Both the position numbers and the translations under genes were made by a program. Positions 844 through 10,299 of a stretch of 22,207 bases of DNA are shown one piece after another. The notes beneath the pieces were generated by a model, which did not search any database, was not told the DNA's origin, and saw only the letters and a program-made list of their open reading frames with translations. Source of the DNA: a virus; the IMG/VR virus record IMGVR_UViG_3300020222_000193, positions 1 through 22,207 of that record; one strand, 5' to 3'. The number at the start of each line of letters is the position of its first letter. Within the stretch, counting starts at the first letter, position 1.

Positions 844-1073
844 ACGGCAACAAAGCCTGGGGACGCCGGGCCACGACCTCGGCCGTCGTCATCATCTTGA
901 CGACCGTGGCCTACTACGTCTCCCTATTCAAGGGAATGGCTGTCGAGTGGTTCATCGAATACGCCAAGGTGATGATTTACATCTTGGGGTTCGTCGTCGG
1001 CGGGCTGACGATCACCGACGGCATCATGAATTGGCGGGCAAAAAATGGAGATATACCCGACAAGCGCGTATGA
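840..1073 (+). CDS. Small two-helix membrane protein, holin candidate, 77 aa
   Basis: The start ATG 840 overlaps the previous stop (ATGA) and follows a good AAGGAG at 832-837; the in-frame ATG at 813 would place nine residues inside the upstream gene. Two hydrophobic segments are visible, at about residues 11-30 (TSAVVIILTTVAYYVSLF) and 43-62 (KVMIYILGFVVGGLTI), joined by a short loop with Lys, Glu and Trp. The C-terminus is charged (WRAKNGDIPDKRV). Size and two-helix topology match class II-type phage holins, which make lesions in the inner membrane at lysis. However, the peptidase is about 10 kb away, so holin is an inference. It could also be another small virion or membrane protein. Confidence 0.7.
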   Translation: MNGNKAWGRRATTSAVVIILTTVAYYVSLFKGMAVEWFIEYAKVMIYILGFVVGGLTITDGIMNWRAKNGDIPDKRV

Positions 1074-1530
1074 CCACCATCGCTATCGGTCATGTGACCG
1101 ATGCGGCGGGCCGACATACAACGTCGTCATCGACTTTGATGCCGGGGCCGTTTGTCCGACCGTCGGAGAAACTTTGACCGGGGCGGCCTCCGGGGCAACG
1201 GGCGTGGTCGTCGAGACGAATCTTGTGTCGGGGACATACGCGGGCGGAGACGCCGCCGGGCGGGTTCTGCTGGAGACTCCGACCGGATACGACACCTTCC
1301 AGGGGACGTGCTTCAGCGACAATGAGGCCGTCACGGGGAGCGTCGGCGGGGTGGCCATGCTGACGGTTGACGGGGCCGGGGCTTTCAAGGTCAATGGGAG
1401 ACTTTACCCGGAGGGCGAAGTCAATAACATTGATGGACGATGGTTATGCCGCGAACACTACGAGAGGGAATATCCGAAAAAGGGGCTTGACGAGGCGTGG
1501 ATAGACGCGGACGAGGAAAGGAACGCATGA
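1045..1530 (+). CDS. Zinc-ribbon-like protein interrupted by a structural-type domain, 161 aa
   Basis: The start ATG 1045 overlaps the upstream gene by 29 bases and has only a weak ribosome site. Near the N-terminus is a CxxC pair (C17 and C20 in CDRCGG). Near the C-terminus is a CxxH pair (C135 and H138 in WLCREHYE). Together they would make a normal four-ligand zinc ribbon, but about 114 residues lie between them. The intervening segment, about residues 35-125, is Gly/Thr/Ala-rich with the pattern GETLTGAASGATG, which is common in phage structural proteins and probably beta-rich. The C-terminal tail is acidic. The stop overlaps the GroES-like start (ATGA at 1527). Metal binding is inferred from the ligand pattern; role unknown. 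Confidence 0.75.
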   Translation: MEIYPTSAYDHHRYRSCDRCGGPTYNVVIDFDAGAVCPTVGETLTGAASGATGVVVETNLVSGTYAGGDAAGRVLLETPTGYDTFQGTCFSDNEAVTGSVGGVAMLTVDGAGAFKVNGRLYPEGEVNNIDGRWLCREHYEREYPKKGLDEAWIDADEERNA

Positions 1531-1808
1531 AAATCAAACCGGCCGGGACAAGGATTTTCGTCGAGCTTCTAGCTGTCGAGGAGCGGCAGACGAAAGGCGG
1601 CATCTGGTTGCCCGACAAACACGCCGAGCAATCGCGGGTCGGGACCGTTCTGGGGGTCGGGCCGAAGGTGGTTGACTTCAAGCCGGGGGATCGGGTCGTC
1701 ATCCCGTTCTACAGCGGCATCGGGGTCGATTACCCCGGAAGCGGCTATCATTACGACACCCACCGATTCTTGGAGCAGACGGAGATTTGCGGCACGCTGG
1801 AGGAGTAG
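1527..1808 (+). CDS. GroES-like co-chaperonin, 93 aa
   Basis: The protein starts MKIKPAGTRIFVELL, matching the first strand of GroES (MKIRPLxDRV). At residues 24-29 it has GGIWLP, equivalent to the mobile-loop GGIVL of GroES, whose hydrophobic tripeptide docks on GroEL. The stretches VGTVLGVGP (38-46) and FKPGDRVVIPFYSG (51-64) match the remaining core of the fold. Length is close to the 97 residues of bacterial GroES. ATG 1527 is chosen because it overlaps the previous stop (ATGA) and follows AGGAAAGGA; an in-frame ATG at 1497 is less likely. Phage co-chaperonins such as T4 gp31 replace host GroES so that GroEL can fold the large capsid protein. By analogy this one should assist folding of a head or tail protein of this phage. 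Confidence 0.9.
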   Translation: MKIKPAGTRIFVELLAVEERQTKGGIWLPDKHAEQSRVGTVLGVGPKVVDFKPGDRVVIPFYSGIGVDYPGSGYHYDTHRFLEQTEICGTLEE

Positions 1809-2483
1809 ATGGGGGCCAAGTCGTTCACCAACTTCAAGGCCCATCTGAAACTTCGGATGGGCAACAATGACGCCTGGGACCCGTATTACGGGGAGTGGGT
1901 CAATTCGGCGTATAGATACCTGACGTCGCTTGACCGGGTCGCCAAGGCCGGTCGAAGCGCGTATTTCCCGCAGTTGGAGACAAGCGAGGACAAAACGACG
2001 ACGGCCGGGTATCCGTATGTCGCCGTGCCGTCGGACGCGCTGACGGTTCGGGAGTGTTTCGACGCGACGAACAAGACGCACTTAGAGTGGATGTCGTGGG
2101 GGGACTACGTCTCGCAGACGAACCGGGACGAGACGACCTCTCGCGGCAAACCGGCCAAGTGGCATCGTCGCGGCGCGTACATCTACCTGTATCCGACACC
2201 GGACGGCGAGCATACCATCAGGGCCTATTACCGGAAGTTGGTGGCCGACCTGTCGGGCGGGACGGACGTGACCGCCATCGGGGCCGAGTGGGACGACATC
2301 ATCTTGGAGTTGGCCCACTATTTCGCCCGGCTCTGGAACAACGAATACGACAAGGCCAAGGTCTCGCACGACGACGCCTTCAACCGGATCGCCCAACTGA
2401 TGACCGTCTATGACGACGAGGAGAAGGCGCGGCGCGAGGTCATGCGGCCGGACGAGCAAGGGACATGGCAACCGACGTATTGA
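1809..2483 (+). CDS. Head-to-tail adaptor protein (SU10/T7 gp11-like), 224 aa
   Basis: ATG 1809 directly follows the GroES-like stop and is preceded by GGAGGAG. The protein is mostly helical at both ends, with a central beta region containing YVAVPSDALTVREC, a Trp-rich stretch (LEWMSWGDYV), then PAKWHRRGAYIYLYPTPDG followed by IRAYYRKL. This order is characteristic of podovirus adaptor proteins that form a ring between portal and tail nozzle. The C-terminal helix (LAHYFARLWNNEYDKAK) also fits. The nozzle gene follows after two small genes, as expected for a tail module. The family call rests on recognised pattern and context, not on a search. The last 19 bases overlap the next gene. Confidence 0.75.
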   Translation: MGAKSFTNFKAHLKLRMGNNDAWDPYYGEWVNSAYRYLTSLDRVAKAGRSAYFPQLETSEDKTTTAGYPYVAVPSDALTVRECFDATNKTHLEWMSWGDYVSQTNRDETTSRGKPAKWHRRGAYIYLYPTPDGEHTIRAYYRKLVADLSGGTDVTAIGAEWDDIILELAHYFARLWNNEYDKAKVSHDDAFNRIAQLMTVYDDEEKARREVMRPDEQGTWQPTY

Positions 2484-2665: not shown

Positions 2666-3055
2666 ATGGGCATAACAGTCACGGGGGCGGCCGAACTCGC
2701 TAATCTCTGCGGGAACGTCTCGACGCCGGTTTCGTTTACGTATGTTGCCTGCGGGACGGGGACGACGGCGTTCTCCAACGCGCAGACGGCCCTGGTTACG
2801 GAAATCACGGACTCCGGCCTTGAGCGGGCCGCCGCCACGCGGACCCGCGTCACGACGACCACGGCCAACGACACGGTACAGTTTGCGAAAACATGGACGG
2901 CCAGCGGGTCCAAGACGGTCAAGGAGGTCGGGGTGTTCAACGACGCATCGGCCGGAATCATGCTGGCGCGGACGAAGCTTACGTCGGAAAAAGTCCTCGA
3001 CAGCGGCGATTCCCATACGCTCATCTATAAGATCAAGTTCCCGGCGACGGCGTGA
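2666..3055 (+). CDS. Phage tail/virion structural protein, 129 aa
   Basis: ATG 2666 follows the previous stop with no gap and has a strong GGAGGGGG ribosome site at 2653-2660. The protein is Thr/Ala-rich and beta-type. It has the run VACGTGTTAFSNAQTALVTEI, a middle with GLERAAATRTRVT, then NDTVQFAKTW, a VKEVGVFNDAS segment and a final strand YKIKFPA. This pattern recurs in phage structural proteins often annotated as tail or tail-fibre-associated. Placed between adaptor and nozzle genes, it is probably a minor virion component; the exact role is unknown. Confidence 0.7.
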   Translation: MGITVTGAAELANLCGNVSTPVSFTYVACGTGTTAFSNAQTALVTEITDSGLERAAATRTRVTTTTANDTVQFAKTWTASGSKTVKEVGVFNDASAGIMLARTKLTSEKVLDSGDSHTLIYKIKFPATA

Positions 3056-3067
3056 CGGAGATGGAAA

Positions 3068-4336
3068 ATGCGGCTGACGTACCCGCTGAAGCCGATTTCC
3101 CATGCCGTATCCACGGAAAGCCCGTCGCTTTTCATGACGCCGGGGTTTTCCCCGTGGGCGTCCAACGGCAGAATCGAGCAGAAATCTTTTAAGAAACGAC
3201 CGGGGTATTTGATTGACCGGGCCGTGGGGCGGTTTATCTATGGGGTCCATCTCTTTCAGACCCTTGTCGGGTCGAGATACACGCTCTATTTGACGGACAC
3301 GGACCTCGCCAAAAAGGAGACGGGGACCGGGGAGACGTTCTCGTATGTGACGAAAACTTACACAACGGGTACAGTCTCAGGGGTTTCGGGCGCGAACGTC
3401 ACGGGAAACGGAACAGCGTGGGACACGAACGCCAAGGCCGGGGACAAGTTCATCATGGCCGCCGACTTGTCGGCCAACGTCGAGCCGGACGAACATTGGG
3501 CGACCATCCAGACGGTCGGCGGGGCGACGGCCATCACGCTTTCGGGGAACTACGCGGGCGCGACGACGACCGGGAACTACATCATCCGCCGCGTCTATTC
3601 CGTCCCGACCGACGAACGATGGTCCACGGCCATTCTCGATGACAAGTTTATCTTCACGAACGGGAATGTCAACGTCCAATACTACAACGGGTCCGGGGCG
3701 GCCGCCGACCTGGACGCGACCTATGCGGTCAAGGCCCGGTTCTGCATAGAATACGCCAACCGATTGTTTTTAGGGGACTATGAAGATTCGGTTGCGGGAC
3801 GCTTGCCGACGTCTATCCGATGGTCGAAGGAGGGCGATCCGACGACATGGGTGGACTCCACGGCCGGGGAATTGGACCTTATCGAGACGGAGGACTTCTT
3901 GGCGGGCCTCGGCAAGGTCGGCACGTATCTCGTCATTTACAAGCGGGATAACATCCACGTCTATACGCGGACGGGGGTCGCCACGAACCCGATAACGCTC
4001 GTGGCCCAGAGGCGGGGCATCGGTTGCGCCGCCCCGTATTCCATCATCGAGTTCATGGGGACGAACGCCTTTGTCGGCCGGGACGATTTCTACATGATGA
4101 ACGGCGATACGCCCATCCCCATCGGTGAGAAAATCCGGACCAAATTTTTCGACATCACGCCGGTCACGGCCGTCGAGAACGTCTGGGGGGCGCACGACCC
4201 GTTGCGGAACGAGTTGCTCTGGACGGCCTCGACGCTGGCCGGGAAATACGCCTTCGTCTATAACTACAAGCATAATGAATGGTATACGTATGAGTTCCCG
4301 GACGACATGACGGCATTTGGACGGGGGGCCTTGTGA
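3068..4336 (+). CDS. Tail nozzle / tail tube protein B-like, 422 aa
   Basis: The N-terminus carries FSPWASNGRIEQKSFKKRPGY. This Asn-Gly-Arg followed by a Lys-Arg-Pro-Gly-Tyr signature is typical of podovirus nozzle proteins (P22 gp10, SU10 nozzle, T7 gp12 families). The later part has repeated beta blades: FCIEYANRLFLGDY, IRWSKEGDPTTW, YLVIYKRDNIHVYTRTG, and a C-terminal YNYKHNEWYTYEFP. These fit a beta-propeller that forms the tail channel below the adaptor. At 422 residues it is much nearer P22 gp10 in size than T7 gp12 (794). An extra Gly/Thr-rich segment lies at about residues 100-175. ATG 3068 follows GGAG at 3057-3060. An ATG at 3061 is out of frame. Confidence 0.8.
   Translation: MRLTYPLKPISHAVSTESPSLFMTPGFSPWASNGRIEQKSFKKRPGYLIDRAVGRFIYGVHLFQTLVGSRYTLYLTDTDLAKKETGTGETFSYVTKTYTTGTVSGVSGANVTGNGTAWDTNAKAGDKFIMAADLSANVEPDEHWATIQTVGGATAITLSGNYAGATTTGNYIIRRVYSVPTDERWSTAILDDKFIFTNGNVNVQYYNGSGAAADLDATYAVKARFCIEYANRLFLGDYEDSVAGRLPTSIRWSKEGDPTTWVDSTAGELDLIETEDFLAGLGKVGTYLVIYKRDNIHVYTRTGVATNPITLVAQRRGIGCAAPYSIIEFMGTNAFVGRDDFYMMNGDTPIPIGEKIRTKFFDITPVTAVENVWGAHDPLRNELLWTASTLAGKYAFVYNYKHNEWYTYEFPDDMTAFGRGAL
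3369..3593 (+). other. Inserted beta domain within the nozzle protein
   Basis: Residues about 101-175 of the nozzle protein form a Gly/Thr/Ala-rich unit containing VTGNGTAWDTNAKAGDKF and HWATIQTVGG, ending in TGNYIIRRVY. It separates two blade-like regions and looks like a small module spliced into the propeller. Similar sequences occur in other phage tail and fibre proteins. Boundaries are approximate and the function is unknown. Confidence 0.45.
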
Positions 4337-4337
4337 C

Positions 4338-5225
4338 ATGGCTACTGCACCGACGAATCTTGTGGCGGCGGCAGACGGGTCCGGCATCCTGCTGACGTGG
4401 ACGAACGGGGAGACCTATGACACGGTAGAGGTTTGGCGGGATTGGGGGAGCGGGTATTTCCTGGCCGAGGAGCTTGTGGGAAGCCCGGAGTCGAAATACA
4501 TCTGGGAGGCTCCGAACGACACACGCTCGTCGTTCAAGGTCCGGGGATGGTCCGACTCTTACCCGCCCGGCGACAAATACAGCGACTTTACAAGCGATGT
4601 CTCCGTCGGCCAATTCGAGACGGAATGTTCCGACGAGTGCGCCGTGACGGATGCCGTGACGTCCGTATCCGCAAAGGTTACGGATGTAACCGATATTTGC
4701 GATGTCTCGGATTCGGTTACGAGCCGGGCCACCTACGTGACAACGATTCTGGACACCTGCGCCGTGACGGATTCCATCACGTCCACGCAGACCGTCCGTT
4801 CCCTCTATACGTTCTATTGGGGTTCGAGCGACGGGAACGTTTATGTTTATGACAACGGGCTTTTAAGCGACAATGGGGCCTCGATTCTCTCGTCGTGGAC
4901 GAGCAAGACCGTGGACTTTTCGGAGCTTCGCCCGGACCTTCACGACCGGTGGAAAACGCTTTACAAGGTGGACTTGACGTATAACGACCTGACGGCTTCC
5001 ACGCCGGTCATTCTCGGCGTCTCCAATGATGGCGGGGCGACGTTCACAAGCTACTCGGCGCAGGTCGGAACCGGCAGTCTGACCGTCGGACAACATACGT
5101 TCTGGATTGTCCCCATGACGGGGCAGTATTTCGTCTTTCGGGTCGAGTGGCCGTCGCCCGACAAGGAGTTCCAGCTTCTGGGGCTTGATGTCCAGGTCGA
5201 GGTCATGGGAGAGGCCGTGAGCTAA
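4338..5225 (+). CDS. Fibronectin III-containing tail protein with 20-residue repeats, 295 aa
   Basis: ATG 4338 follows the nozzle stop by one base; an in-frame ATG at 4317 lies inside the nozzle gene and is less likely. Residues 4-90 look like a fibronectin type III domain (APTNLVAAADGSGILLTWTN, then VEVWRDWGSGYF, ending FKVRGW). Residues 101-150 are three tandem 20-residue repeats each starting with Cys. The rest (about 155-295) is a beta-rich domain with LYTFYWGSSDGNVYVYDNG and ending FQLLGLDVQVEVMG. This resembles adhesion or nozzle-associated domains of phage tails. The stop overlaps the fibre start (TAATG). Likely a tail accessory protein joining nozzle and fibre; inferred from position. 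Confidence 0.7.
   Translation: MATAPTNLVAAADGSGILLTWTNGETYDTVEVWRDWGSGYFLAEELVGSPESKYIWEAPNDTRSSFKVRGWSDSYPPGDKYSDFTSDVSVGQFETECSDECAVTDAVTSVSAKVTDVTDICDVSDSVTSRATYVTTILDTCAVTDSITSTQTVRSLYTFYWGSSDGNVYVYDNGLLSDNGASILSSWTSKTVDFSELRPDLHDRWKTLYKVDLTYNDLTASTPVILGVSNDGGATFTSYSAQVGTGSLTVGQHTFWIVPMTGQYFVFRVEWPSPDKEFQLLGLDVQVEVMGEAVS
4638..4787 (+). repeat. Three 60-bp / 20-residue tandem repeats with Cys-Val-Ser/Thr-Asp core
   Basis: The units begin at Cys101, Cys121 and Cys141 (codons at 4638, 4698 and 4758) and read CAVTDAVTS, CDVSDSVTS and CAVTDSITS, exactly 20 residues apart. The DNA copies have diverged at many third positions, so the repeat is kept at protein level. Confidence 0.85.
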
Positions 5226-8110
5226 TGGAATATGGGACCGGGTTCATCATGCTTCCGTCGCCCCCGGCGGCGTTGGACGGCGTGGTGTCCTATCTCCAGG
5301 CATTGTATTCCACGCTGAATCTCGTCGAGACAAACCGGCTGATTGACATTTCGCGGCTGAAAATCCGGCTGGAGTCGGATGAGCCGCCGGACCCCGTTCC
5401 GGGCCTGATTTGGCTGGACACGGACGACGGGACCGTCTATGTCCGGAACGAGGACAATACGGGCTGGTACACGGTCGGGACGGGTGCGCCGGGGACATCC
5501 GGCTACAGCGGAAGGTCCGGCTACAGCGGGATGTCCGGGTGGTCCGGCCTCTCCGGTTGGTCCGGCTCCGGGGTGTCCGGCTATTCGGGCGAGGGGACGA
5601 GCGGCTATTCGGGAATGTCCGGTTGGTCCGGATGGTCTGGATTGTCTGGGTGGTCCGGGAGGTCCGGGTGGTCCGGGGTATCTGGGTGGTCTGGGTGGTC
5701 TGGATTATCCGGATGGTCTGGTTGGTCCGGGCTGGTTGGTGCGCCTGGGGCGACCGGCGCGAAGGGCGACCCCCCGTGGTACAACGTCAAGACCTATGGG
5801 GCTGTCGGGGATGGCGTCACGGACGACACCTCGGCCGTCCAAGATGCGGTTGATGCCGCGATTGTAGACGGCGGATGCGTCTATTTCCCGACGGGGACAT
5901 ATAAGCTCACATCGGAAATTGACGTTGATGGGATATGCACGATTCTCGGAGAGGACCGTTCTTCCACCATTCTGAAGTTCTACGGATGCAACGGCCTTGA
6001 CCTCAACTACCACCAAATCAGCCTGGAAGGGTTCATACTCTGGGATGGCGACGGAGACAAGACCGGGACCGGGATTACGCTGAATGCGGTTTATGGCGCA
6101 CCGTGGGCGCACATCTTCATGAAGAACATCTGGGTCTACGGGTTCAACCTCGGAATGGACATCAGCTATTGTTGGGAATCGTCGTTTGTCGGCGTGACCG
6201 TGTCAGAGGGGAGGTACGGGGTCAGCGTCACGGGGCAGAGCGTTAATATTCAATGGACGGGATGCAGTCTCCAGAGCGTTTTGACGAGCGCGGGGACATA
6301 TTCCGTCAAAGTCGCTACGGATGGCTCATACGACCCGGAGGGCATCACATTCGGGAACTGCCTCATGTTTGGCGGCGAAACGGCGGTTCGCCTGGAGACA
6401 GCCCCGTGGACGTTCTTCAACAACTGTATCATCGACGGGGCGGATGTCACGGGGGTTTATATTTCGGGCGGGGCCAGCGGCATAAAACTCATCGGGAACT
6501 ACATCTACACAGCCGGAACGGGGACCGCCTACGGTATTTATATTGCCGCCATCGTCGGGGCAACGTCGGTCGGCTCAACAATCACCGGGAACTATCTGCG
6601 GGCCGGGGGCGGGGCCGCATCCACCGGCATCTACGTCGGGGCGAACAACGAACATAATGTCATCAAGGAAAACACGCTCATCCATTTCACCACTTGCGAC
6701 GTGAGCGTGAATAGCTCCAACAATGTCATCGGGCCGAACACGCACTATTCGTCCGGCAAGACGGATAAGGACGTTTACCTGACGGCCTTGGGGAATGTTT
6801 ATCTTCCGTCCGTTTTGTCGGATGGGATGAAATCCACGGTACATTCGTTTGTCCGTGCGGTCCTGCCGGGGACGAACACGCTCTCGGCCGCCGCCGCCGC
6901 CATGCAGGACGGCGATACGCTCGTTCTTCAGGCGGGGACATACACGCAAACGGTCCCCGTGACAATCCCCGCGACGGTCAACAATTACGGCATTGTCGGA
7001 CAGGGAAGCGGGGGATACGGATACGACAACGCCACCCTGTCCGGGACGGTCATTCGGTTTACCGCCGCCGTCGACGGAATCACCAAAAGCACCGCCGACG
7101 CGGCCTACCGGAGTTGCCATGTCCTCCTCCAAGGGTTCACGATGGTCTATGACGTGAACTCGTCCGGGGCGGGGTTATGTGGTATAATGGTCTGGGGTAA
7201 TTCCGGAATGTCCCACAATCAACCAATGGTCACCCTGCGGGACATTCAGTTGACTTACGGGGCATCCGTCGGAAACAACTGGGAGGTGGGCGTAGACCTG
7301 ATCGATTGTCGAGAATTTCTCATCGACAACTGCCGCCTTAGAAAAGAATCCAACTCGTTTGTTCGGGCTGGCGTTTTGCCGACAAACACCGGCTTTAGGT
7401 TCCAGTCGTGCATGGGCGGCGAGATCGTCAATTCCGTCGCCTGGTGGTATGAAAAGAACTTCCATCTCACCAAGGCATCAGACGCCCTTATCAAAGACGC
7501 GACGAAACATGGTTGCGAGGGCATTTACGTGACGAACTGCCATGCCTCGTATGGGAGATACGGGTTTGTCCTGGGGTACAAATCGTTCGCCTGCCACTTC
7601 AAGAACATCGGAATCGCGGAAAACGCCGAATACGCTATCTGGGAAGATACGGCTTCCGGGACGGAAAACAGCGGGTATCATACGTTCGACGGGATTTATA
7701 CGGACATCGGGGAGGGGGCATGGGAGGGCGACTCCCCCCTCGTGGAATCCACCCACGTCATTTTTCTTCGTATGCCGGGGACCATCGTTAGAAACGGGAC
7801 AATCAACCTAGAGGGGAAGAACGCCAATGGGGTCGTCATCGACTCCGGGTCCGGGGCGGACGCGGACTATTGCATCGTTGGCGGCCTCATCTTCCGGGAT
7901 GGGGGGGTTGGGGGATCAAGTTGCGTCTGGAGCAACGCATCCCAAAACAGCATCATCGAGGGGAATATATTCCTGGGGACAAACGGGGCGGGGTATGACA
8001 TCACGGTCGGGGCCGGGAGCAACCAGACCTTGATACACGGGAACCAACTCGACATCGCCGTGAACGACGCGGGGACGGACACGGCCCAATACGACAACCT
8101 GGAGCATTGA
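5225..8110 (+). CDS. Tail fibre/spike with collagen-like stalk and two beta-helix modules, 961 aa
   Basis: ATG 5225 overlaps the previous stop. Residues 1-85 are a probable virion-anchoring part with an IWLDTDDGTVYVRN strand pair. Residues 87-181 are collagen-like with Gly at every third place. From about 186 the sequence YGAVGDGVTDDTSAVQDAV is the classic start of the pectate lyase 3 right-handed beta-helix family, common in capsule- or LPS-degrading spikes. Its coils run to about 530 (repeated NNVI/GNYI turns). A second module starts near 548 (GTNTLSAAAAAMQDGDTL, LQAGTYTQTV) with its own coils to the end. No separate C-terminal trimerisation or autoprotease domain is obvious. Receptor binding and possibly glycan cleavage are inferred; catalytic residues cannot be assigned by eye. 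Confidence 0.85.
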   Translation: MEYGTGFIMLPSPPAALDGVVSYLQALYSTLNLVETNRLIDISRLKIRLESDEPPDPVPGLIWLDTDDGTVYVRNEDNTGWYTVGTGAPGTSGYSGRSGYSGMSGWSGLSGWSGSGVSGYSGEGTSGYSGMSGWSGWSGLSGWSGRSGWSGVSGWSGWSGLSGWSGWSGLVGAPGATGAKGDPPWYNVKTYGAVGDGVTDDTSAVQDAVDAAIVDGGCVYFPTGTYKLTSEIDVDGICTILGEDRSSTILKFYGCNGLDLNYHQISLEGFILWDGDGDKTGTGITLNAVYGAPWAHIFMKNIWVYGFNLGMDISYCWESSFVGVTVSEGRYGVSVTGQSVNIQWTGCSLQSVLTSAGTYSVKVATDGSYDPEGITFGNCLMFGGETAVRLETAPWTFFNNCIIDGADVTGVYISGGASGIKLIGNYIYTAGTGTAYGIYIAAIVGATSVGSTITGNYLRAGGGAASTGIYVGANNEHNVIKENTLIHFTTCDVSVNSSNNVIGPNTHYSSGKTDKDVYLTALGNVYLPSVLSDGMKSTVHSFVRAVLPGTNTLSAAAAAMQDGDTLVLQAGTYTQTVPVTIPATVNNYGIVGQGSGGYGYDNATLSGTVIRFTAAVDGITKSTADAAYRSCHVLLQGFTMVYDVNSSGAGLCGIMVWGNSGMSHNQPMVTLRDIQLTYGASVGNNWEVGVDLIDCREFLIDNCRLRKESNSFVRAGVLPTNTGFRFQSCMGGEIVNSVAWWYEKNFHLTKASDALIKDATKHGCEGIYVTNCHASYGRYGFVLGYKSFACHFKNIGIAENAEYAIWEDTASGTENSGYHTFDGIYTDIGEGAWEGDSPLVESTHVIFLRMPGTIVRNGTINLEGKNANGVVIDSGSGADADYCIVGGLIFRDGGVGGSSCVWSNASQNSIIEGNIFLGTNGAGYDITVGAGSNQTLIHGNQLDIAVNDAGTDTAQYDNLEH
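5483..5767 (+). repeat. Collagen-like Gly-X-Ser repeat, 9-bp period, in tail fibre
   Basis: From Gly87 to Gly181 Gly recurs every third residue, with 25 Gly-X-Ser triplets and two one-residue breaks (near residues 115 and 123). Ten triplets have Trp at X, others Tyr, Leu, Met, Arg or Val. Proline is confined to the flanking GAP triplets. The DNA is an imperfect 9-bp minisatellite built on GGTTGGTCC-like units. Confidence 0.9.
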
Positions 8111-10299
8111 TGAAAATCTCAATCGTCATCCCGACCTACACCCACGACGTTATGCCGTGCCTGCGGTCTGTGTTCCAATACACCTCCGGGGCCGAGATCA
8201 TCGTCGTCGCCAACGGGTCTCCGCCGCCGAAGGTCGCGGCCCTCAGAAATCTTCCGGGCATCCGGCTCATCGAGTCGCCGGAACCCCTGGGATACGCCGG
8301 GGCCGTCAACGTCGGCGTGAAGAACTCGACCGGGGATTACATCGTCCTCCTGAACGACGACTGTCTGCTGTTGGAACAGCCCGTCAACCGCTGGCTGGAC
8401 CAGCTTTTGGCCCCGTTTTCGAGTCCGACGGTCGGACTGACGGGGCCGCTCTACGGATATTCCGCCCCGGCGGATGCGAACTTCCTGGTGTTTTTCTGCG
8501 TGATGATCCGCCGGGCCGTGTTCGACGCCATCGGCTATCTCGACGAGTCGTTCAATCCGGGGGCCGGGGAGGACACGGACTTCTGTATCCGGGCCGAACA
8601 AGCGGGCTTCAAGGTCGTCACGGCCACAGTCGGGCCGACCCGTCCCGAGGGCGGGCTTGTCATCGGGGACTTCCCCATCTACCACAAGGGCGAGGCGACC
8701 GTCGCCCATCTCCCCGGATGGGAGGAAACGTTCAAGAAGAACGCGCAAAAACTTCTGGAGAAATACAACAAGAAGTGGCGGCTGTCGAACTATTGTGAGC
8801 GGGCCGTCATCGGGGCCGCCGACGACGCGCCGCCCCGCGAACGGGCCAGGTACGAATGGGCCGCGAAACGAATCGTCGGACGGAAAGTCCTGGAAATCGG
8901 CTGTTCCTCCGGCTACGCCCTCCGGTTTCTGAAGGACGTTGACTACCACGGCATCGACAAGGACCCGGCTGTCATCGAATATGCCAGACGTCAGTTTGGG
9001 GACCATTTCGAGGTGGCCGACATCAACGCCTATGACTATGGGCAATATGACACCATCATCGCCTTCGAGGTCCTGGAGCATTTGGACAACGGGCGGGAGT
9101 TGGCGCAAAAGCTGAAGAACCACTGCCGGTGCCTGCTGGCGACGTGCCCTTACGACGAGACGCCGCTGTGGGTCTCGTGGCACAAGCTCTCCCATCTTGT
9201 GCCGGATAGTTTCCCTGGATTCAAGGCAAGATACATTTCGGCTGGCGGGGAAATAGCGACGCATCCGATGGGGCCGGAGACGATACTGCTGATGAGTTGG
9301 GGCGAGCCGGAGGTGCTGTGTTTTGTCCCGACGCGGGGGCGTTACGAGACGACCCTTCCGCTGACGTTGGCCGCCGTCATAAACCAGACCCGCCCTCCCG
9401 ATAGGGTGGTCATCTACGACGACGGGGACCACCGTGATTTGCGCGAAATCCCCATCTACCGGAGCCTGTTCATGCTCGCCGAGAGGAAGGGTATCTCTTG
9501 GGAGGTCGTGTTTGGGGACGGTTCCGGCCAGCACCGAGGCCATCAAATCTCCCAGGGCATGGGGGCTGCGTTTGTCTGGCGCGTGGACGACGACGAGATT
9601 CCGGAGCCGGACGTTCTGGAGATATTGTTACGGGATATGGGGGACGGCGTTGGGGCTGTCGGCGGGCCGTGTCTCGTGCCGGGGATGCCGGACGGGCCGC
9701 CGAGCGTCGGGAAGATCACGGAGCCTGGGCTTCCATCCCCCCAATGGCGGGTCGGCCAACGGATGGACGTTGAACATCTCCACAGCACGTTTCTCTACCG
9801 GCCGGGGATTGTTGATTACGACTCCCGGTTGTCGCCCGCCGCCCACCGCGAGGAAACGATTTTCACGCACGAGATTTTCCGGCGCGGCAAACGTCTCATC
9901 TACGAGCCGCGGGCCGTGACCTGGCATCTCCGCAACCCAGAGGGCGGGATACGCTCCCATTCCGACCGTCGGAATTGGGACCATGACGAGGGCGTGTTCC
10001 GGCTCAAGATGGCCGAGTGGGGGCGGGGGACGGACGGGAAGCTCGTCTATCTGGACTCCGGGCTTGGGGACCACATCGTGTTTTCGACGCTGGTCCCAGA
10101 GCTTTTGGCGCGGCACAAGAAGCTTGTCGTGGCCTGTTGCTACCCGGAGGTGTTCGGGGGAATGGCCGTCGAGTGCGTGAGCCTGGAGTGCGGGAAGATG
10201 ATGGGGGCCGACCCGGAGACGCACAACGTCTATAAATGGATGGCCGACCGGGCGTGGAACAGGCCGCTTGTGGACGCCTACAGGGGGCTGTATCTATGA
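8110..10299 (+). CDS. Multidomain glycosyltransferase-methyltransferase-glycosyltransferase, 729 aa
   Basis: ATG 8110 overlaps the fibre stop (TGATG) after GGAG; a TTG at 8107 is unlikely. Four parts are visible. Residues 1-220: a GT2 (GT-A) domain with ISIVIPTYTHD, the nucleotide/metal motif NDD at 82-84 and a GEDTDFCIRAEQAGF segment. Residues about 240-395: a SAM-dependent methyltransferase with VLEIGCSSG (motif I) and IIAFEVLEHLDN. Residues about 398-630: a second GT2 domain with FVPTRGRYETTLPLT and VDDDEIPEPDV. Residues about 640-729: LVYLDSGLGDHIVFSTLVPEL, like the N-terminal part of GT9 heptosyltransferases. It probably builds and methylates a glycan on the virion, the fibre or the host surface. 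The acceptor is unknown. Confidence 0.85.
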   Translation: MKISIVIPTYTHDVMPCLRSVFQYTSGAEIIVVANGSPPPKVAALRNLPGIRLIESPEPLGYAGAVNVGVKNSTGDYIVLLNDDCLLLEQPVNRWLDQLLAPFSSPTVGLTGPLYGYSAPADANFLVFFCVMIRRAVFDAIGYLDESFNPGAGEDTDFCIRAEQAGFKVVTATVGPTRPEGGLVIGDFPIYHKGEATVAHLPGWEETFKKNAQKLLEKYNKKWRLSNYCERAVIGAADDAPPRERARYEWAAKRIVGRKVLEIGCSSGYALRFLKDVDYHGIDKDPAVIEYARRQFGDHFEVADINAYDYGQYDTIIAFEVLEHLDNGRELAQKLKNHCRCLLATCPYDETPLWVSWHKLSHLVPDSFPGFKARYISAGGEIATHPMGPETILLMSWGEPEVLCFVPTRGRYETTLPLTLAAVINQTRPPDRVVIYDDGDHRDLREIPIYRSLFMLAERKGISWEVVFGDGSGQHRGHQISQGMGAAFVWRVDDDEIPEPDVLEILLRDMGDGVGAVGGPCLVPGMPDGPPSVGKITEPGLPSPQWRVGQRMDVEHLHSTFLYRPGIVDYDSRLSPAAHREETIFTHEIFRRGKRLIYEPRAVTWHLRNPEGGIRSHSDRRNWDHDEGVFRLKMAEWGRGTDGKLVYLDSGLGDHIVFSTLVPELLARHKKLVVACCYPEVFGGMAVECVSLECGKMMGADPETHNVYKWMADRAWNRPLVDAYRGLYL

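Follow-up and report, generated by a model that had tools for sequence, protein, structure and literature searches.

The gene at positions 1045-1530 (+) of the window, the whole 22,207-base IMG/VR virus record analysed here, encodes a small protein in which a phage structural module lies between the two ligand pairs of a putative single zinc site. The initial annotation had proposed that a structural module is inserted in a small zinc-binding protein. This is well supported, both by homology of the module to Hc3/nozzle proteins and by relatives that lack it; the direction of insertion in time is unproven, since the tree is unrooted. What is new here is that one and the same site is found bare, occupied by this module (module A), or occupied by a different insert, and that the zinc site is dispensable in one lineage. 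No published description of this zinc-clamp family was found in the literature searched.

The open reading frame starts with ATG and encodes 161 amino acids followed by a stop. As first noted from the DNA, a CxxC at residues 17-20 (CDRC, 1093-1104) and a CxxH at residues 135-138 (CREH, 1447-1458) are 114 residues apart, and the GETLTGAASGATG segment lies between them, at residues 41-53. The zinc-clamp gene overlaps the next gene, for a GroES-like protein, by 4 bases. The features are:

1045..1530 (+), zinc-clamp scaffold with inserted module, whole gene, 161 aa (ORF; full-length homologues; alignment)
1045..1110 (+), N-terminal scaffold, residues 1-22, with a short predicted strand at 14-16 (AlphaFold2; N-part profile matches L017, L032 and L050)
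1093..1104 (+), CxxC (C17, C20), putative ligand pair one (present in 17 of 18 alignment rows)
1111..1395 (+), inserted module A, residues 23-117, predicted beta-rich, pLDDT mostly 93-96 (AlphaFold2; matches in Hc3 proteins; absent from bare forms)
1396..1527 (+), C-terminal scaffold, residues 118-161, with a predicted strand, beta-hairpin 126-135 and helices 136-142 and 144-160 (AlphaFold2; C-part profile)
1447..1458 (+), CxxH (C135, H138), putative ligand pair two, start of a helix (17 of 18 rows; AlphaFold2 helix 136-142)
1527..1808 (+), GroES-like co-chaperonin, next gene (Pfam Cpn10 1.1e-12; phrog_3188 1.8e-13)
1809..2483 (+), SU10-type head-tail adaptor (PF24175 7.2e-17)
2666-3055, gp80-like fibre protein (Pfam/PHROGs searches)
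3068..4336 (+), virion protein of the Hc3/nozzle type, which served as phylogenetic marker (phrog_3287 4e-36; phrog_578 head closure Hc3 1.6e-5)

Further downstream in the window are a 961-aa ORF with GYSG/GWSG repeats (5225-8110) and a 730-aa ORF that by eye resembles a glycosyltransferase-methyltransferase fusion (8107-10299).

The zinc-clamp gene is present in 24 distinct viral contigs, window included. The first scan gave the full-length relatives L001 and L002 together with phages sharing the middle part only; profiles of neighbouring genes then added 33 Hc3 loci and others. Left out of the 24 are L020, whose gene is identical in DNA to that of L019, and L047, in which the upstream part is cut off and the C-terminal part alone is present. 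Repeat contigs or windows are not counted (L008, L011, L013, L026, L027, L030, L036, L044-L046, L049 and L058-L062), and Hc3-bearing loci that end before the slot were set aside (L034, L035, L038-L042 and L052). The scaffold profile found nothing in L022, L056 and L057, which are distant Hc3 matches. Likewise, tblastn of the bare proteins of L017 and L032 and of the L053 protein gave no match in 50,697 phage records, neither the window protein nor any other scaffold member searched was assigned by Pfam or PHROGs, and every match of the family profile to PDB sequences, LIM proteins among them, had an E-value of 0.24 or worse. The sole find in a scan of genome contigs was a module match in L012, an Omnitrophota MAG contig.

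The scaffold is found in three forms. Module A is present in 17 of the 24 contigs (window, L001, L002, L014, L015, L016, L018, L019, L021, L031, L033, L037, L043, L048, L053, L054 and L055). No module is present in six (L017, L032, L051, L023, L024 and L025), which form four lineages by sequence and have the gene in the same slot. The remaining form, in L050, carries a longer insert in the same loop; it has no similarity to module A and places the ligand pairs 172 residues apart. The L050 insert had no match in phages, and locally it is related, weakly, to a single segment downstream of Hc3 in L043 (E 3e-4); by its TNGDF...GW pattern it may be a carbohydrate-binding-type jelly roll. The bare proteins measure 88 aa (L017), 91 aa (L032), 92 aa (L051) and 70 aa (L025, with L023 and L024 also at ~70), so that the length of about 60 residues expected by the initial annotation for relatives without the insertion was too short.

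The kinship of the bare proteins with the window protein rests on a held-out test, in which a profile made from module-bearing scaffolds only, with the module columns omitted, was searched against 3240 ORFs. It retrieved all six bare ORFs (L017 8e-17, L032 1.4e-14, L051 3e-14, L023-L025 5e-12 to 3e-10) and L050 (1e-9); nothing outside the family fell below 1e-3, and the best reversed ORF stood at 0.0099. The C-part profile by itself matched the held-out bare ORFs at E 3e-8 to 9e-15. Homologues without the insertion but with the same kind of C-terminal tail, as the annotation had anticipated, do therefore exist.

In an 18-row alignment only four Cys/His columns are conserved, namely C17, C20, C135 and H138, and all four residues are present in 17 rows; Cys 37 and Cys 89 of the window protein are not conserved. 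A chance occurrence of CxxC and CxxH is rejected on the conservation of exactly these four columns, and we infer that the scaffold protein binds zinc. Across the 24 contigs, all four ligands are found in 18. L023-L025 have CxxE and CxxC, and L051 has CxxE and CxxH, i.e., the second Cys of pair one is missing. The one exception among the 18 rows is L037, in which all four ligands are missing, as they are in its near relative L048. Both proteins (L037:2333-2818 and L048:2823-3284) bear the module and keep the scaffold; the L048 gene has a frame break near the C-terminus, with its second half in a shifted frame, and was read in three frames and not mended. It follows from the CxxE forms and from the ligand-free L037 and L048 that zinc is not indispensable. 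The joint loss of both pairs in L037 and L048, within a single lineage, matches the expectation of one shared site. In the bare homologues the pairs are 31-38 residues apart, or 18 where pair one is CxxE.

The predicted structures bear on the class of the zinc domain. The AlphaFold2 model of the window protein, made from the 18 rows, has a mean pLDDT of 83.5, with most of the module at 93-96 and most scaffold elements up to residue 140 at 81-89. The order of elements in this model is strand 14-16, CxxC, module strands 24-117, strand 120-122, hairpin 126-135 and a helix from 136 (by DSSP, E14-16, E126-129, E132-135 and H136-142). The model of the bare L017 protein has the scaffold elements in the same order (E17-19, E54-56, E59-61 and H63-77) at a low confidence, pLDDT 65.9. 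In these predictions the element order is of the treble-clef/LIM type: a CxxC knuckle, a beta-hairpin, and a helix starting at the CxxH. The initial annotation had read the two pairs as zinc-ribbon halves. A zinc ribbon has its two CxxC/H knuckles on beta-hairpins and no ligand pair on a helix. That label is rejected because the window and L017 models both place the second pair at the start of a predicted helix, which follows the beta-hairpin.

Comparison of the L017 model by VIA-align gave 8 of 88 PDB chains at Z 2.0-2.6, to be read with the low confidence of the bare model in mind. Seven of the eight we take, by title or identity, to be RING-type, LIM or ClpX zinc domains; these model-based matches are suggestive of a treble clef, not proof. 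A Foldseek search of viral structures with the bare model gave none at E 0.001. The predicted succession of CxxC, hairpin and CxxH-starting helix is common to the scaffold and known treble clefs, such as the second LIM finger and the ClpX zinc-binding domain. Pfam LIM gave a weak match (0.06 for L019), beside the low structural scores against LIM, RING and ClpX zinc domains. Its C-terminal 'G-x-x-YC-x-x-HY' presumably also recalls the second LIM finger. In contrast to LIM, which has two zinc sites, the scaffold has one predicted site with four conserved ligand columns, and most members carry a module of ~93 aa inside that site. Its sequence matches all lie below the curated threshold: the best score to Pfam LIM (PF00412) is 14.1 bits (L019) vs a gathering cut-off of 22.9, and the window protein gave none.

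By sequence, module A is a phage virion domain that occurs in nozzle (Hc3) proteins of other phages as well. hmmsearch matched it in L003-L007, L009, L010 and L012. In all of these loci except L009 the matching protein is of the Hc3 or 'phage stabilization' type, and the match lies towards its N-terminus; in L009 it is a hypothetical protein from a Methanomicrobiales-assigned virus. Alignment of module A to the modules of the Hc3 proteins by hhalign gave 99.5%, E 3.4e-23, over 68 columns, and L021 weakly matched a Vibrio phage 1.232.O protein annotated as head-closure Hc3 (E 8e-3). P22 gp10 is of the nozzle type of short-tailed phages. SU10 gp17 is likewise the Hc3/nozzle protein of a short-tailed phage, as described in PMC9509320. 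In contrast to the Hc3 proteins in which it occurs, module A is absent from the Hc3 proteins of scaffold-bearing phages (0 of 22). Conversely, where Hc3 does carry module A (seven loci), no scaffold gene was found within 1.1-4.8 kb of upstream DNA. The Hc3 protein of the window, for its part, matches tail-fibre families (phrog_2712, 1980 and 1591) at residues ~98-171, possibly another mobile module.

The module A profile had no match in PDB sequences, and Foldseek gave none for module A at E 0.001. Among PDB structures it scores highest against baseplate proteins of the T4 type (Z 7.3-7.4, 79-84 residues, rmsd 3.1-3.7). Their titles name T4 or Klebsiella phage baseplate, and we take them to be the T4 gp7 baseplate wedge, residues ~759-848. 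The identity of gp7 to module A is 12-14%, the Z range is middling by the tool, and translation-factor barrels of the EF-Tu/aIF2-gamma type come nearly equal to gp7 (Z 6-6.7). When the model of the window protein was compared with BFVD, seven matches reached E 0.001, and the named ones are mostly baseplate, neck, fibre and other phage structural proteins. Promiscuous Ig-like and other modules are a theme of the literature on phage structural proteins. Hoc, the subject of PMC10385173, is an example. Module A resembles such modules in being a beta module that recurs in unrelated virion proteins, with no Ig-like status implied; it differs in that it sits inside one putative zinc site, flanked by the two ligand pairs, and in that the same gene slot is held in other phages by homologues that are bare or have another insert.

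How the three forms arose was addressed with two unrooted trees, one of the neighbouring Hc3 and adaptor proteins (22 rows, four of them bare) and one of the scaffold (56 or 58 columns). Insertion is the simpler reading, given the bare scaffolds and, at the same position, a second insert unrelated to the first. If the module-bearing form were ancestral instead, the bare proteins would be products of repeated excision. Such a history agrees with the predominance of module-bearing forms (17 of 24 contigs) and with the neighbour tree, in which four changes are required for the four bare rows (well supported branches force three of these), a single clade of bare rows is rejected (p-AU 5.5e-6), and bare L025 is nested among the module-bearing L016, L001 and L015. 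In the same tree, L050, with its different insert, is the sister of L021, which carries module A (99/99). However, the scaffold itself tells otherwise: its tree has almost no supported branches, and in tests on few columns, with clades picked after the alignment was seen, it rejects L025 with L001, L015 and L016 (p about 0.02-0.025; 0.025 with 58 columns), whereas bare rows and L050 as one clade are not rejected (p 0.41-0.51; 0.41 with 58 columns), nor is L050 with L021 (p 0.25). Because the neighbour and scaffold trees conflict, it is more likely that the whole small gene has been exchanged between phages, which explains the scatter in fewer events than repeated excision. Repeated excision, which also has to contend with an unrelated insert in the very same loop of L050, was set aside as the first-choice history and we regard it as unlikely. 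Besides exchange, we read the data as pointing to modules gained separately two or more times, or gained once and replaced once.

The gene order around the scaffold is conserved. A GroES gene directly follows the zinc-clamp gene in 23 of the 24 contigs (undetected in L031), and the SU10-type adaptor gene comes after it in 23 of 24 (L002 ends before the adaptor); upstream, a major-head-like gene is found in L002, L058 and L059. The GroES homologues of L025:3905-4285, L023:4155-4535 and L024:4613-4993 have a DnaJ-like CxxCxGxG motif pair in the N-terminal region, at the place expected of the mobile loop (Pfam DnaJ_CXXCXGXG 0.0037, below cut-off). Further small CxxC...CxxC proteins occur upstream of the zinc-clamp gene (L002:4236-4956, L025:225-1110, L015:63-575 and L037:550-834). 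The two large ORFs upstream of it in L050 (L050:178-4139) have, by eye, signal-peptide-like hydrophobic starts, unusual for virion genes.

From the position of the gene between major-head and adaptor genes and from the other homes of module A, we infer a virion location for the protein and a role for module A. It is reasonably probable that the protein is a virion-accessory zinc clamp that presents its module at the head or head-tail connector, and that it is bare or carries another module in other phages. The scaffold would be a small, single-zinc, LIM/treble-clef-like unit running from CxxC knuckle through beta-hairpin to CxxH-starting helix, whose knuckle-hairpin loop holds the ~93-residue beta module A in the lineage of the window. 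By closing the base, zinc would keep both ends of the module together, so that module A could fold and protrude as one unit. Other phages would use the scaffold bare, or to present an unrelated module B, as in L050.

A less likely alternative is a role in assembly. Here the protein would be a zinc-dependent helper or regulator that works outside the virion with the adjacent phage GroES, its module binding a capsid or connector client. The immediate adjacency of GroES, overlapping in the window, and the small CxxC/CxxC proteins nearby in L002, L015, L025 and L037 speak for such a helper, but the other home of module A is in Hc3/nozzle virion proteins and in structure it resembles portions of proteins of the baseplate, neck and fibre, which makes this role doubtful. 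That the pairs form no single site and are separate half-motifs or disulfides of an ordinary multidomain protein, as their distance in the window protein might suggest, is very improbable given their closeness in the bare homologues, their concerted loss in L037 and L048, and the treble-clef element order of the predicted models.

The virion-accessory reading can be taken a step further, more tentatively. Two unrelated inserts in one loop, the bare forms, and a module A that was found in both places in none of the loci covered raise the possibility, which we put below an even chance, that the scaffold is a zinc-stapled socket at the head-tail connector into which unrelated display modules are plugged, swapped or omitted, with module A moving between socket and nozzle (Hc3). 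The family amounts to a natural experiment in protein architecture, in which one putative zinc site is split by a whole domain and bare, module A and different-insert versions occupy one slot. It would exemplify how an insertion site stapled by a metal can accept domains unrelated to one another, and would allow the movement of virion modules from protein to protein within a phage particle to be tested.
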